Part shown: piece by piece, positions 20,474-44,434 of the stretch
How positions within the stretch are numbered: the stretch's first letter is position 1
Layout: every line of letters begins with the position of its first letter
Origin: an uncultured Opitutia bacterium
GTDB lineage: Bacteria; Verrucomicrobiota; Verrucomicrobiia; Opitutales; Opitutaceae
Length of the DNA: 64,000 nucleotides
Direction: 5' to 3'
Assembly: GCA_903827245.1 (NCBI GenBank)
Contig: CAIKHO010000085.1
Span: forward strand, 1-64,000
Notes under the pieces: generated by a model
The model's database searches: none
What the model was told of the DNA's origin: nothing
Seen by the model: only the letters and a program-made list of their open reading frames with translations
Made by a program: the position numbers and the translations under genes

Positions 20474-21460
20474 TCAACTCAGCATCTTCGCGCCGTCGGT
20501 CGAGTAATTGATGAAGGTTTCCTGCACTGCGGCATGGATGGCGGCGATCTTGAGCTGGATGGCATCAAGGTATTCGTGGAGGCCGTCCGCGATCATGTCG
20601 GCCATGACGGCCTGCCCGAGTTCGTCGTGCAGCCGGGCGATGAGGCGGCGCGCGGGGTTGTCAGTGAGGTGCGGCGCCTCGGCGGTAATGCAATCGAGGG
20701 CAAACCCGGCGTGACTGACCGCGTAGAGGATGCTGCGCGGGAAATTCTCGTCGCAGACCAGGTAATCGACCACGTGCTCAAGGTTGAGCTGGCCGCGGCG
20801 GCTCTTGCGGAACGCCTCGAAGCCGGAGGAGGTGCGAAGCACGGCGGCCCACTGGACGATGTCGAGCGCGGAGCCGACGGCATGCACGCTGGGCAGGAGC
20901 GTGAAGTATTTCACGTCGATGATGCGCGAGGTGTTGTCGGCGCGTTCGAGGTGGCGGCCGAGCTCGAAGAACCACCACATTTCGTTGCGGGGCAGCATCG
21001 ACTCGGCGATGCCGTAGAACAGCTGGATCTGGGTCTTGACGCGCGTGATGTAGTCGGACGAGCCCAGCTGGGCGTAGCGCGTGTAGTCGTCGTCCTTGAG
21101 CTTGAGGTAAAACGAGTTGATCTGCTCCCAGACCTCGCTGGCGAGCTGGTCGCGGACGCAGCGGGCGTTTTCGCGCGCGAGGCTCACGCAGGACAGGATG
21201 GAGCTCGGGTTGCGCAGGTCGAACAGCATGAAATCGACGACGGTGCGCTCGCTGACGTCGTCGCCGTGCAGCTCGGTGAATTCATCGATGCCGCCCGACA
21301 CGTTGACCAGCGGTTTCCAGGAACGCGGGTCATCCGCCGCCTGACGCGACTGGAGGTCGAGCACGAGCTGGGCGTTGACGTCGATGATGCGGGCGGTGTT
21401 CTCCGCGCGCTCAAGGTAGCGGGCCATCCAGTAGACGAGATTGGCGACACGGGAAAGCAT
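20474..21460 (-). CDS. Alpha-E domain-containing protein (DUF403)
   Basis: 328-residue all-helical protein. The start MLSRVANLVYWMARYLERAENTARIID is diagnostic of the alpha-E family (written here only in part: YWMARYLERAENTAR). Members sit next to circularly permuted ATP-grasp enzymes in many bacteria, and comparative genomics has proposed that the pair makes or attaches a small peptide. No enzymatic activity is established for alpha-E itself. Here it is the third gene of the operon secreted protein / ATP-grasp / alpha-E, but separated from the ATP-grasp stop by a 34-bp-armed palindrome (21467-21598). No Shine-Dalgarno is visible upstream of the ATG at 21460. Confidence 0.93.
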   Translation of the reverse strand: MLSRVANLVYWMARYLERAENTARIIDVNAQLVLDLQSRQAADDPRSWKPLVNVSGGIDEFTELHGDDVSERTVVDFMLFDLRNPSSILSCVSLARENARCVRDQLASEVWEQINSFYLKLKDDDYTRYAQLGSSDYITRVKTQIQLFYGIAESMLPRNEMWWFFELGRHLERADNTSRIIDVKYFTLLPSVHAVGSALDIVQWAAVLRTSSGFEAFRKSRRGQLNLEHVVDYLVCDENFPRSILYAVSHAGFALDCITAEAPHLTDNPARRLIARLHDELGQAVMADMIADGLHEYLDAIQLKIAAIHAAVQETFINYSTDGAKMLS

Positions 21461-21466
21461 GGGGAA

Positions 21467-21598
21467 AATTTACGAAGGACGATTTACGAATTGCGATTTT
21501 GCCGGCTGTGGCGCGCTCGCGCAAGGTACGGGCCCGAGAGGCGATCTTCGTTTGTGGACTTCATAAAATCGTAATTCGTAAATCGTCCCTCGTAAATT
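21467..21598. repeat. Word-reiterating palindrome filling the ATP-grasp/alpha-E gap
   Basis: Arms of 34 nt (21467-21500 and 21565-21598) are inverted complements with 32 of 34 positions matching. Within an arm the word TTTACGAA/ATTTACGAATT recurs. The centre is about 64 nt. The element starts 6 bp from the alpha-E start codon and ends 2 bp from the ATP-grasp stop, so it fills the gap inside the operon. The composition is AT-rich compared with its surroundings. Confidence 0.9.
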
Positions 21599-21600
21599 CC

Positions 21601-23094
21601 TCAGACCTGGATCTCCTCCGGGGCCTCGGGCTCGGCCGCGGCGTTGTCATCGTCCGCCGCCAGCACCCAAGTGTCCTTGGAGCCGCCGCCCTGCGACGAG
21701 TTCACGACCAGCGAGCCCTTGCGCAGCGCGACCCGGGTGAGACCGCCGGGCATGATCTTGATCGTTTCGCCGTTGAGTATGTACGGACGCAGGTCGATGT
21801 GCCGGCCCTCGAGGCAGTCGCCGCAAATGCTGGGACAGCGGGAAATGCCGAGCGTGGGCTGGGCGATGAAATTGCGGGGATGCTCGATGATCTTGGCGCG
21901 GAAGTCCTCGATTTGCTCCTTGGTGCTGTGCGGTCCCACCAGCATGCCGTAGCCGCCGGCCTCGTTCACACTTTTGACCACGAGCTTCGGGAGGTTTTCC
22001 AGGATGTAGGTCAGGTCCTTGGCATCGGAGGAAAGAAACGTGTCCACGTTGGGCAGGATGGCGTCCTGGCCGAGGTAGAACTTGATCATCTGCGGCACGT
22101 AGTAGTACATCGCCTTGTCGTCGGCGACACCGGTGCCGATGGGATTGCAGAGCGCGACGTTGCCCTTGCGGTAGGCGTTGACGAGGCCGGGCACGCCGAG
22201 GAGCGAGTCTTCGCGGAAGACGGTGGGGTCGAGGAAATCGTCGTCGATGCGGCGGTAGATGACATGCACGGGCGCGAGGCCGTCCGTGCGGCGCATGTAG
22301 ACTCGGTCGTTCTCCACCACGAGGTCGCCGCCCTCGACGATTTCGATGCCCATCTGGCGGGCGAGGAAGCTGTGCTCGAAGTAGGCGGAGTTGAACACGC
22401 CGGGGGTCAGCAGCACGACGGTGGGATCGGGCACGTGCTCCGGCGCGAGGTGCATGAGCAGGGCGAGCAGGTCGTTCGGGTAGGTCTCGACGGGCCGCAC
22501 CCGGTAGTCGCGGATGAGGTTCGGGAAAACGCGCTTCATGATCTGGCGGTTTTCCAGCACGTACGACACGCCTGACGGCGTGCGCAGGTTGTCCTCCAGC
22601 ACACGGTAGGTGCCGTGCTGGTCGCGGACGAGATCGCTGCCGTTGATATGGACGAAGAGGCCGCGGGGCACGGCGAGCCCGACCATCTCGCGGCGGAAGT
22701 GCTTCGAGGTCTCGACCATTTCGCGCGGCACGATCCCCTCGCGCAGGATGTGCTGCTGGCCGTAGATGTCGGCGAGGAAAAGGTTCAGCGCCGTCATGCG
22801 CTGGATGAGCCCGGCCTCCAGGTGGGCCCATTCGGGCGCGGGCACGATGCGCGGGATGAGGTCGAAGGGAAAAATCTTCTCCGTGCCGCGGTCGTCGCTG
22901 TAGACGGTGAACGTCACCCCGCGCCGCAGGAACGTCTGGTCGGCTAGCTGCTGGCGCTCCTGGAGCTCGCGCATGCCCTCCAGCCGCGAAAAACGCTCGG
23001 CGAGGCGCTCATAATGGGCGCGCGGTCTTCCCGCGGCGTCGAACATCTCGTCGCAAAACGGCCCCAGCTCGTAATTCGCAAAGAGGTCGGGCAT
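21601..23094 (-). CDS. Circularly permuted type 2 ATP-grasp protein (DUF404/DUF407)
   Basis: 497-residue cytoplasmic ATP-dependent carboxylate-amine ligase homologue. Diagnostic pieces are [12 protein letters not shown] near the start, the [12 protein letters not shown]-like region, [14 protein letters not shown], the [13 protein letters not shown] stretch, [19 protein letters not shown] (glycine-rich nucleotide loop) and [23 protein letters not shown] near the end. Enzymes of this group are expected to form an amide bond, perhaps on a peptide or amino acid; the substrate is unknown. Its ATG overlaps the stop of the upstream secreted-protein gene by 3 nt (ATGA), so the two are translationally coupled. 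The C-terminus has a variable acidic tail. Confidence 0.93.
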
Positions 23095-41706: not shown

Positions 41707-44328
41707 CTAACTCTTGCGATGAATGACCTGCGGCGCGGTTTCCATCTGGCCGCGGGTGACCCCGAGCTGGTTGAGAAGCTTGAATTCGCGCCAGAGATCG
41801 GCGCCGGAAATTTCGCCCCGCAGGAGCTGCTGGTATTTCGCGAGGGTGCGGCCGACCTCCCCGGGATCCTCGTTCACAAACTCCACCCGGAAGCTCCGGG
41901 CCCCGAGCTCCAGCAGGCGGGGAATGTATTCCGCGCCGGTCTGGGCGCGGTTGTTGAAAACGGTGTTGCGGCAGCCGGCGTCGGCCTTGAGCGGCAGCTC
42001 GGCGCCCACGCGGTCGCGCAGCGCGACCCGGTGCCGGTCGCACGGGCGGCCGCAGTCGCGGTAGTCCTTGCCGGCCGAGAGAAACGCGCAGAACACGCAG
42101 TGCTCCATGTGAAACATCGGCATATGCTGGTGGATCGTGATGTCGAACCAGCCGCCGGGCGCGGATTGCAGCAGCGCCTCCAGCTGGACGACGTTGAGAT
42201 CGTAGCTGGCCGTCACGCGTTCGAGACCGTGGCGGCGCAGGAAGTAATCGGCCGACCACGGGTTGGCGACATTCAGCGAAAAATCGCCCCGCCGGCGGTC
42301 GCCGGCAAAGAACGTGAGATGGTCGTAGTTGCGGACGAGGTAGCCGTCGGCGTCGCAGGACCGCACCTGCTGGAGAATCCACTCCTCGCCCGGCTTGAAG
42401 ATCCGGGGCGGCGCCACCCAAATGGCGGCGGGGGAGGAGGGGGACGGAGAAGGGGCGGAAGCCTGCAACTGCCGGAAGGCGCCCACGGCGTCCCGATAAT
42501 GCTTCGGGTTCTCGAACTCGCAGTAAATCGTGCGCACGCCCGAGGACCAGGCGGGTGCGAGTTGGTCGAGGTTGCGGATGACAGCGATGATCTCGGGGGC
42601 GCGGCCGGCCTCGGGGCCCCGGAAATCCGGGGGAGCGAAAGTCCGCAAGGTCCAGCGTTTCGGTTGCGCCCGCAACTGCTCGAGAGCGGTGGCGGCCTCA
42701 CGGCGGAGGCGGTTGAGTTCGCTGACGGGCAGGATGACCGGGCCCTCGAGGAACGACTTCAATACGCCGAGACGAAAGGGCGTGCCGCCGAGGCGTCCGA
42801 GCGATTCCCCCAGTCGCTCCGGCGTGAGCGGCTGCCGCTCGGCCGTGGCCAGCGGAACCGCGGACTCCAGTTTCACCGCATGGCCATCCTCGTCGCTGGC
42901 GATGAGCGTGAGGGGCAGGCCCGCCCGACCATGCACTTCCAGCGCAACGGGCCGCTGAAAACGATTTTGGGTGCCCTTGAAGGTGGCGCCCACCTCGCGG
43001 TCGAGGGCGGGGTCGTTGGTTTTCCAGACCCGTTGTCCGGCCCGCACGCGGCGCCAGTCGATGTCGCCGTGACCGAAGCGCAGGGTGACCTCGCCGGCCG
43101 CTGCGCCGCTCGCTTCCACCTGATAAATGCGGCCGCCCTCCTCGCGCTCGTCGGGCCGGCCGGCGTCAAACACCAGGCCGTCACCCGGCTTGAGCGGCGC
43201 GACGGGCGTGAGCGAGACGCTCTCGCCGCCCACGCGCGTGATGGAGCCAAGGAACACGCCGCGCTTGGTCCCGAAACGGGCATGCACGAGCTCCTGGTTG
43301 TCGATCCCGCGAAACCAGCCGGGATGGAGCCCGCGGGAAAAACTCATCTCGAGTTCGTAGCGGGCGCTTAATGGGTTGAAAGTCGAAGGTTGAGGGTTGA
43401 AAGACCGGTCGCCGACGGGCTCGGGGCTTTCAACTTTCAACCACGAACTTTCAACTCCGCAAAGCTCGTCGAGAGCTTTGCGGTAAACCCGCGTGATGCT
43501 CGCGACATAGTGGGGCGATTTGAGCCGGCCCTCGATTTTGAGGGAGGCCACCCCGGCCCGGATGAGTTCGGGCAGCACGTCGAGGCCGGAGAGATCCTGG
43601 GGACTGAGCAGGTAGCGCTTGTCGCCGAGCGGCACGGGCTGGCCGTCGGCGATCAACTCGTACGGCAGCCGGCAGGCCTGGGCGCATTCGCCGCGGTTGG
43701 CGGACCGGCCGCCGAGCGATTCGCTGGTCAGGCACTGGCCGGAGTAGGCCACGCAGAGCGCGCCGTGGACAAAGACCTCGAGTGGCAGCGGCCGGTCGGC
43801 GCCGGCCTGAGCCGCCTGGATCCGGGTGATCTCCGCGATCGAGTTTTCGCGGGCCAGCACGACGAGCTGCGCGCCGAGTTCCCGGGCAAATTCCACGCCG
43901 GCGGCGCTCGTGATGGACATCTGCGTGGAGCAATGGATGGGAAAATCGGGCGAGAGCGCGCGAATCATCCGGCAGATACCGACATCCTGGACGATGGCGG
44001 CGTCGACCCCCGCGGCGATGATGGCGCGCAGGTAACCCTCGGCCTCGGGCAATTCGTTGGTGAAGGCGAGCGTGTTGAACGTCACGTACCCGCGCACGCC
44101 CCGGCGGTGCAGGAATTCCATCAGCGCCGGCAGGTCGGCCTGGGTGAAATTCTTCGCCCGCATCCGGGCGTTGAAGCGCTCCAGTCCGAAATAAATCGCA
44201 TCGGCACCGTTCTCGACCGCCGCCTTGGCGCACTCCCAGTCACCGGCCGGCGCGAGCAATTCGGGCCGGCGGGGCCGGGCCGGAACGCGGCGGTCCGCAA
44301 CGGAAGCGGCGTCGGCAGGTTGGTGCAT
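41707..44328 (-). CDS. U32 family protein (RlhA/YdcP-like), with in-frame repeat insertion
   Basis: 873 residues from ATG 44328. The N-terminus ELLAPAGDWECAKAAVENG...YFGLERFNAR is diagnostic of U32 proteins; the body contains HCSTQMSITSA, VLARENSIAEI, EVFVHGALCVAYSGQC and NRGECAQACRLPY, which include the conserved cysteines expected to bind an iron-sulfur cluster. Related E. coli RlhA (YdcP) is needed for hydroxylation of 23S rRNA C2501; family members were first annotated as collagenases. A second Cys cluster lies in HMEHCVFCAFL and RDCGRPCDRH. Between residues about 291 and 319 (ESSWLKVESPEPVGDRSF and following NPQP) the sequence is the translation of a palindromic repeat (43373-43458), keeping the frame. 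It probably retains function because the insert falls in a loop; this is untested. Confidence 0.9.
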   Translation of the reverse strand: MHQPADAASVADRRVPARPRRPELLAPAGDWECAKAAVENGADAIYFGLERFNARMRAKNFTQADLPALMEFLHRRGVRGYVTFNTLAFTNELPEAEGYLRAIIAAGVDAAIVQDVGICRMIRALSPDFPIHCSTQMSITSAAGVEFARELGAQLVVLARENSIAEITRIQAAQAGADRPLPLEVFVHGALCVAYSGQCLTSESLGGRSANRGECAQACRLPYELIADGQPVPLGDKRYLLSPQDLSGLDVLPELIRAGVASLKIEGRLKSPHYVASITRVYRKALDELCGVESSWLKVESPEPVGDRSFNPQPSTFNPLSARYELEMSFSRGLHPGWFRGIDNQELVHARFGTKRGVFLGSITRVGGESVSLTPVAPLKPGDGLVFDAGRPDEREEGGRIYQVEASGAAAGEVTLRFGHGDIDWRRVRAGQRVWKTNDPALDREVGATFKGTQNRFQRPVALEVHGRAGLPLTLIASDEDGHAVKLESAVPLATAERQPLTPERLGESLGRLGGTPFRLGVLKSFLEGPVILPVSELNRLRREAATALEQLRAQPKRWTLRTFAPPDFRGPEAGRAPEIIAVIRNLDQLAPAWSSGVRTIYCEFENPKHYRDAVGAFRQLQASAPSPSPSSPAAIWVAPPRIFKPGEEWILQQVRSCDADGYLVRNYDHLTFFAGDRRRGDFSLNVANPWSADYFLRRHGLERVTASYDLNVVQLEALLQSAPGGWFDITIHQHMPMFHMEHCVFCAFLSAGKDYRDCGRPCDRHRVALRDRVGAELPLKADAGCRNTVFNNRAQTGAEYIPRLLELGARSFRVEFVNEDPGEVGRTLAKYQQLLRGEISGADLWREFKLLNQLGVTRGQMETAPQVIHRKS
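43373..43458. repeat. TTGAAAG-word palindrome inserted in frame in the U32 gene
   Basis: Left arm 43373-43403 (31 nt) and right arm 43427-43458 (32 nt) are imperfect inverted complements built from repeated GTTGAAAG/CTTTCAAC words, with a 23-nt centre. The whole 86-bp element reads through in the U32 frame without a stop and adds about 28 residues rich in Ser, Pro, Asn and Phe. The immediate flank (GCAAAGCTC at 43459) is native coding sequence. Confidence 0.85.
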
Positions 44329-44434
44329 GATCCTAGCTAGGCTTCTTCTCCCGCGCCGCAACAGCATTAAGGTGGTGCCGGTGCGGCAACAAAAAGCTGG
44401 TACTTGATCGATGGGGAGCGTCTATGGGGAGGCG

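Follow-up and report, generated by a model that had tools for sequence, protein, structure and literature searches.

A heptad palindrome read in frame in a U32 protein gene and its likely kinship to S23/IVP elements

How does a palindrome made of seven-base words come to lie inside an open frame that encodes a conserved protein, and what is it a copy of? The locus belongs to the window, i.e. the whole 64-kb stretch of DNA analysed here, in which an ORF of 886 amino acids on the minus strand (41707-44367) encodes a U32/DUF3656 protein, with matches to Peptidase_U32 (PF01136, best stretch at residues 107-304) and DUF3656 (PF12392, residues 447-566). A sequence search found no solved structure related to this protein. 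The palindrome occupies positions 43373-43458 (minus strand). Its left arm (43375-43402) consists of four GTTGAAA-type words on the plus strand, its loop (43403-43427) is 25 bases long, and its right arm (43428-43455, minus strand) repeats this word as an inverted array with one degenerate copy. As claimed by the earlier note, the palindrome lies wholly inside the coding region and is read through without a stop, the ORF being open and the palindrome in frame with it. The roughly 28 residues said to be added are encoded in frame as well, but counted from the first ATG they are residues 304-332 (GVESSWLKVESPEPVGDRSFNPQPSTFNP) and not 291-319, numbers which fit a start 13 codons downstream. The insert begins where the best Peptidase_U32 stretch ends, and the peptide stretch VESSWLKVESPEPVGDR belongs to the insert region.

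The arms are complementary at 22 of 28 positions, and the period-7 fraction of the palindrome is 0.67. Computed folds of its two strands lie far from those of shuffled sequences (z of -6.15 and -7.01), none of 200 shuffles being as good. Seven inverted repeats reach the detector cut in the window; two of them are 7-periodic by the cut applied, which none reaches at any of the periods 3-6 and 8-11. Since each arm contains a degenerate word, the U32 element escapes detection by 7-periodicity alone or by strict array pairs, and it is found when inverted repeats are sought first. A second heptad palindrome (21467-21598, fold z -7.71), built of a GATTTAC/GAATTGC-type word, sits between the ORFs 20474-21460 and 21601-23094, both on the minus strand. 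TTGAAAG words cluster only once in the window, at the U32 palindrome, so other elements of that word are located outside it, elsewhere in the genome.

Comparison with orthologues shows how the U32 segment is distributed. In support of the earlier note, the palindrome is absent from most relatives, namely from 21 of the 22 orthologues aligned to the U32 protein of the window (L087 and L088 were left out of this alignment, and L090-L094 were not included). The remaining one, L068 from another genus of the family (genome G021, 79% identity), carries a palindrome of this kind at the corresponding site, next to the same residues DELCGVESS; its loop is, by eye, unlike that of the window. An orthologue carrying the same segment at the same place, the very finding which the earlier note had named as speaking against its reading, thus exists at a moderate distance. 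A recent, private insertion into the U32 gene is therefore disfavoured, and the segment is probably inserted but old, unless one site was hit twice. That the repeats are mobile or expanding is something we still infer: the in-frame reading and the absence from nearly all orthologues support the reading of the earlier note, whereas the presence in L068 makes this case look neither recent nor private.

The linker in question varies in length among the aligned orthologues. The insert could survive in the U32 protein because the frame is kept and because it falls into this linker of variable length. Four orthologues (L066, L070, L072 and L077) hold a single exact word each in the U32 segment, which at best hints at remnants. 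When the aligned genes were scanned for period 7, at a cut which misses the element of the window itself, two arrays were detected in L075 (genome G004) and one in L078. The L068 gene carries four separate in-frame heptad inserts and still reads open. Three of these are further word arrays, read as PSTFNPQLST, PSTFNFPPST and PSTFNSQLT; the gene is open from the ATG taken as its start, the two stops counted in its match lying upstream of that ATG.

The same word occurs elsewhere in the genome from which the window comes. Tandem TTGARRG words number 16 there (3 for the reversed-pattern control), or 56 (control, 35) when one mismatch is allowed. Among 19 inspected places, out of 30 loci fetched by word searches, 11 are palindromes, including that of the window, which the script label of this check had missed owing to an extra word. 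One of them lies in the ORF of a DEAD_2 helicase as a second in-frame palindrome, reading AVESLKLKVERP...STFDPQLSP; the peptide signature that the earlier note proposed to look for in other proteins does recur. The ORF of an RND transporter holds a solo array in frame. Elsewhere, two TTGAAGG arrays of opposite direction (L005 and L006, C9:4750 and C9:5930) lie about 1.2 kb apart on one contig. Two further places proved to be the arms around a gene of the S23 family, L032.

A profile search of this genome identified five S23/23S_rRNA_IVP genes (PF05635; L031-L035). L032 encodes an S23 four-helix-bundle protein, which matches the solved structure 2gsc_A with an E value of 1.2e-22, and the gene is bracketed by the word of the U32 insert, GTTGAAA, in the same layout of arms. 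The U32 palindrome, in turn, consists of two inverted arrays of a word common to this resident S23 element. The palindrome at 21467-21598 does not share its word with a resident S23 element: by eye, it is absent from the five S23 words of the genome. Those five words are, by eye, different for each gene. Within 120 bp, the period-7 score reaches at least 15/21 on at least one side of L031, L032 and L033, and downstream of L035, which reaches it on both sides within 250 bp. The flanks of L034 score at most 11 and 13 for period 7 and match each other as an inverted repeat, with a score of 21.

S23/IVP genes are common in the family: 264 matches were found in 61 genomes, 51 of which have at least one. 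We tested the flanks of 94 of these matches, 60 of them picked among the matches listed. About half of the flanks (upstream 49%, downstream 50%) reached a period-7 score of at least 15/21, as did 1% of the 184 control windows. No other period in the range 3-13 exceeded 5% of S23 flanks; the signal at period 14 follows from period 7. Around genes not belonging to S23, 7 of 92 flanks were 7-periodic, the control set consisting of 21 frr, 8 livH and 17 U32 loci (from the livH loci, L327, L334, L335 and L356, all with an S23 gene, were excluded, as was L339).

The two flanks of an S23 gene also correspond to each other. When upstream and downstream flanks of the 94 loci were matched as inverted repeats, the median score was 16.5 for true partners and 9.0 for mismatched loci; the true partner ranked first among 94 at 41 loci, and within the top five at 70. 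In loci from named contigs, the medians were 19.0 and 9.0 (79 of 80 loci). The same applies to the words themselves. They differ by no more than one base between the two arms in 74 of 106 loci, as against 9.7% of cross pairs; this comparison covers those 106 of 174 loci in which both arms score at least 13/21, a cut that L033, L034 and L035 fail. Loci with similar S23 proteins tend to share words, 0.34-0.56 of pairs lying within one base at 55-90% identity and 0.01-0.03 below 45%; the loci in these pairs were not known to share a site, and unlabelled sites may include orthologous ones.

The association extends beyond the family. Of 80 loci on named contigs, 29 of 31 from a mainly verrucomicrobial set and 31 of 49 from other groups were positive on at least one side. 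Labels among the positive records include Bacteroidota, Planctomycetota and cyanobacteria, and one of four records labelled archaea is positive, although these are mostly metagenome bins whose taxon labels may err. Altogether, 123 of 174 non-plasmid loci were positive on either side and the remaining 51 stayed below the cut for period 7. Among plasmid records, those matching S23 come mostly from cyanobacteria. In 12 of 29 plasmid hits that were inspected, with flanks taken to include 25 bases of the gene, seven-base arrays were found at ten loci and eight-base arrays at two; the flanks of L377, L379, L380 and L388 fail to match as inverted repeats (scores 7-10), and the arrays of L380 are, by eye, direct. 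The phage records searched gave no S23 match. Arrays of eight instead of seven bases occur at L387, L388, L188, L196 and L201.

The gene downstream of S23 points the same way as S23 in 70 of 83 and in 66 of 70 cases; in the non-verrucomicrobial set, the figures are 42 of 44 for the downstream and 37 of 45 for the upstream gene. Orientation of the upstream gene (plus in 38 of 89 and in 47 of 73) was judged by the longest ORF, which cannot be relied on where loci are GC-rich.

Taken together, these results make it reasonably probable that the U32 insert represents a gene-less copy of an S23/IVP element, the complete form of which comprises an inverted array of about four words, an S23 gene and the complementary array. 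This reading is based on the word and layout of L032, the statistical association of S23 genes with arrays, mostly inverted, in many genomes, the presence or absence of such elements at orthologous sites and the open frame. In the mechanism we propose, the element would be transcribed with its host operon and its arms would pair into a long hairpin. In full copies, an S23 oligomer may recognise the word array and assist copies, whether full or arm-only, in spreading to new sites. A gene-less palindrome would then have the arms as recognition sites without the gene, and the copy in U32 would simply be translated. The S23 protein is a candidate for a role in array spread. If each S23 gene brings its own word-specific arms, its substrate becomes directly testable. 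The U32 case further indicates that the gene of a conserved protein can accommodate a gene-less copy in frame.

Is a resident S23 gene required? The counts of two words were not significantly higher in the 51 genomes with S23 genes than in the 10 others (p 0.18 for each word). The number of GTAGCGR words correlated with that of S23 genes (rho 0.46), and that of TTGARRG did not (rho 0.14); the reversed-pattern controls amounted to 178 against 625 and 48 against 400, and S23 arms are included in the counts. Two genomes devoid of S23 matches are rich in words, G004 in both tested ones and G044 in GTAGCGR. In the genome of the window, exact matches to the pattern GTAGCGRGTAGCGR are confined to the two arms of its own S23 element. 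A strict need for a resident S23 gene is thus unsupported. Three possibilities are left for array-rich genomes without S23: movement of the arrays by other genes, loss of S23, or growth of the arrays where they are.

Particular sites are occupied by S23 elements again and again. They recur between genes, among others at livK-livH, gyrA, nuoG and pheT (sites were named by motifs recognised in the downstream translation, not by annotation). The 22 livK-livH loci display TTGAAAG, TTGAGAG, TTGATAG, TTGATGG and other words depending on the genome, and by eye both arms change together, the arms having been compared at this site. The S23 gene itself is present at livH in 4 of 13 loci and absent from 9, according to profile search. 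L328, from the genus of the window, has no S23 gene at livK-livH and bears a heptad array of another word there. In the pyrH-frr spacer, the genome of the window has a TTGAAAG palindrome, while arrays of other words are seen by eye in L306, L307 and L308. From 13 loci each, 11 frr and 12 livH spacers were compared; frr loci L318-L326 were not included and L328 was read separately. The different words of relatives at pyrH-frr (L305-L308) and livK-livH (L328) point either to a recurrent site or to turnover of words in place.

This brings us to the strongest competing explanation, according to which replication slippage, together with template switching at hairpins, creates and alters heptad arrays and palindromes where they stand; no movement is involved, and S23 genes do no more than tolerate or stabilise such places. 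A local change of repeats could indeed give the same picture as the differing words of relatives at pyrH-frr, and those at livK-livH point the same way. So does the variable number of heptamers within one rRNA intervening sequence, as described in the sections of that study consulted here (PMC4990558), together with the failure of TTGARRG numbers to track S23 numbers. Solo arrays, too, are common, genome G004 having TTGARRG arrays at 48 places. Yet one word is found at many places of a single genome (187 tandem matches in G003, against 36 for the reversed-pattern control), and arrays in several ORFs encode a nearly identical peptide. Slippage leaves unexplained why distant loci share a word and why the arrays are tied to S23 genes, and we regard it as unlikely, although by no means negligible.

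The solo arrays of G004 deserve closer description. We inspected 17 of the 48, and each is situated within an open frame, 301-787 codons long, of the pyrimidine strand. Frames were judged by openness, not by homology, and four of these arrays also have a long frame on the other strand. The inverted-repeat-first detector is blind to solo arrays, so that it found no inverted repeat of high period-7 fraction in 200 kb of G004; it found five in 200 kb of G003 and two in 400 kb of the genome of the window, one of the latter being better fitted by period 6. In G004, array strand agrees with the half of the chromosome at 26 of 28 and at 20 of 20 places, with cuts at 2.2 and 4.6 Mb that were chosen by eye and post hoc. 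GC skew in ten 20-kb samples of G004 does not flip at these places.

The earlier note compared the insert to the palindromic elements of Rickettsia (RPE), which are palindromic and sit in frame within protein genes. By this description the U32 palindrome resembles them, being in frame in a protein gene and lacking in nearly all orthologues. We know of no heptad words in RPE and of no link between them and S23. The insert might belong to an RPE-like family of dispersed palindromes spread by a mechanism apart from S23, with S23 genes as passengers caught between two copies. Three ORFs of the genome of the window with arrays in frame (the palindromes of U32 and helicase and the solo array of the RND transporter) would fit such a family, as would G004 with its many arrays and no S23 match. 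However, S23 genes of several phyla, with quite different words, tend to be bracketed each by a word of its own, a pattern that is not predicted by chance capture, and this explanation appears rather improbable to us. The closer relative identified here is the S23/IVP element around L032, which has word and arm layout in common with the insert.

REP or REPIN elements moved by a RAYT (Y1) transposase would likewise be small dispersed palindromes, and the verrucomicrobial genome of O. terrae is highly enriched in GTAG-tagged REPs, according to the part of the source relied upon here (PMC3733652). The arms of our elements, in contrast, are tandem arrays of seven-base words. A search with the Y1_Tnp profile, positive in 5 of 14 control genomes, gave no match in the genome of the window, which is 97% complete. 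REP/RAYT is disfavoured on this ground, and we give it very little credence. The RVT_1 profile (PF00078) likewise found no match in this genome, while 3 of 14 control genomes were positive, which speaks against a diversity-generating or other RVT_1 retroelement. Avd of diversity-generating retroelements is a relative of S23. Finally, an ordinary variable low-complexity linker with repeats arisen by chance would be in keeping with the differing lengths among orthologues, but a fold z of -6 to -7, the complementarity of 22 of 28 positions, the periodicity of the words and the recurrence of this DNA word in further ORFs and in spacers render it extremely improbable.

Among known systems, the preferred reading, a gene-less copy of an S23/IVP element, leads to the intervening sequences (IVS) of 23S rRNA. 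Many described IVS carry an S23p/IVP gene and some do not. In one species, for which we draw on portions of the published study, heptameric repeats (GACAGAT) precede the S23p gene of an rRNA IVS and their number varies between strains; the IVS is excised by RNase III, and S23p is probably not made in vivo (PMC4990558). The same portions describe the S23p of Xanthomonas as a homopentamer and S23 proteins as having no known function (PMC4990558). The likeness thus consists of an S23-type gene (PF05635) within a hairpin insert and, in that one species, of heptamers before the gene. The U32 palindrome has inverted arms which would give a hairpin RNA, as judged by arm complementarity and computed fold; its 25-base loop holds no S23p gene, and L032 does have one. 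Unlike IVS, the elements described here lie between or inside protein genes and not in rRNA, one of the two in the window being located in the U32 ORF and the other in a spacer. Moreover, each locus tends to have a word of its own, and short gene-less copies are dispersed, some of them in reading frames.

Heptads without reference to rRNA have been reported as well. Tandem heptanucleotide repeats of Xanthomonas and of cyanobacteria, among them Nostoc, are over-represented in non-coding regions, and GGGAATC heptads form convergent pairs in 70 and 75 cases in two Xanthomonas genomes, according to the passages on which we rely (PMC4692102). The U32 palindrome has both features noted there, tandem seven-base units and a convergent pair. 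Those passages do not mention S23 genes (PMC4692102). Heptad arrays flank most of the inspected S23 loci on our mostly cyanobacterial plasmids. Among the papers listed by searches of an open literature library, none linked S23 genes to heptad arms outside rRNA, as judged by title or abstract. The parts, namely S23 in rRNA IVS, heptad repeats and IVP in cas loci, were already known, and their joining appears to be new.

Beyond the family, we suggest only tentatively that S23/IVP genes with arrays of seven, sometimes eight, bases represent one mobile class across bacteria, perhaps also archaea, which has no known transposase and in which a small oligomeric four-helix-bundle protein would read its own word, the two arms changing in concert. 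Such a class, with its gene-less palindromes and solo arrays, would explain many heptanucleotide repeats, rRNA IVS, stray IVP genes in operons and cas loci, and in-frame inserts; if it is real, IVS with heptamers, genome-wide heptad repeats and the IVP genes of cas loci could be unified.

The last of these have a counterpart in our plasmids. An IVP gene located between cas genes, e.g. Cmr3 and Cmr2, has been listed among functions associated with CRISPR-Cas, in the part of the survey referred to here (PMC3936711). The plasmids examined by us display the orders cas10-S23-cmr3 and cas6-S23-cas4, accompanied by arrays of seven or eight bases, which suggests that S23 genes flanked by arrays in cas loci are inserted elements and not cas genes. 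S23 genes inside cas loci were observed at three plasmid loci, L380, L383 and L387.
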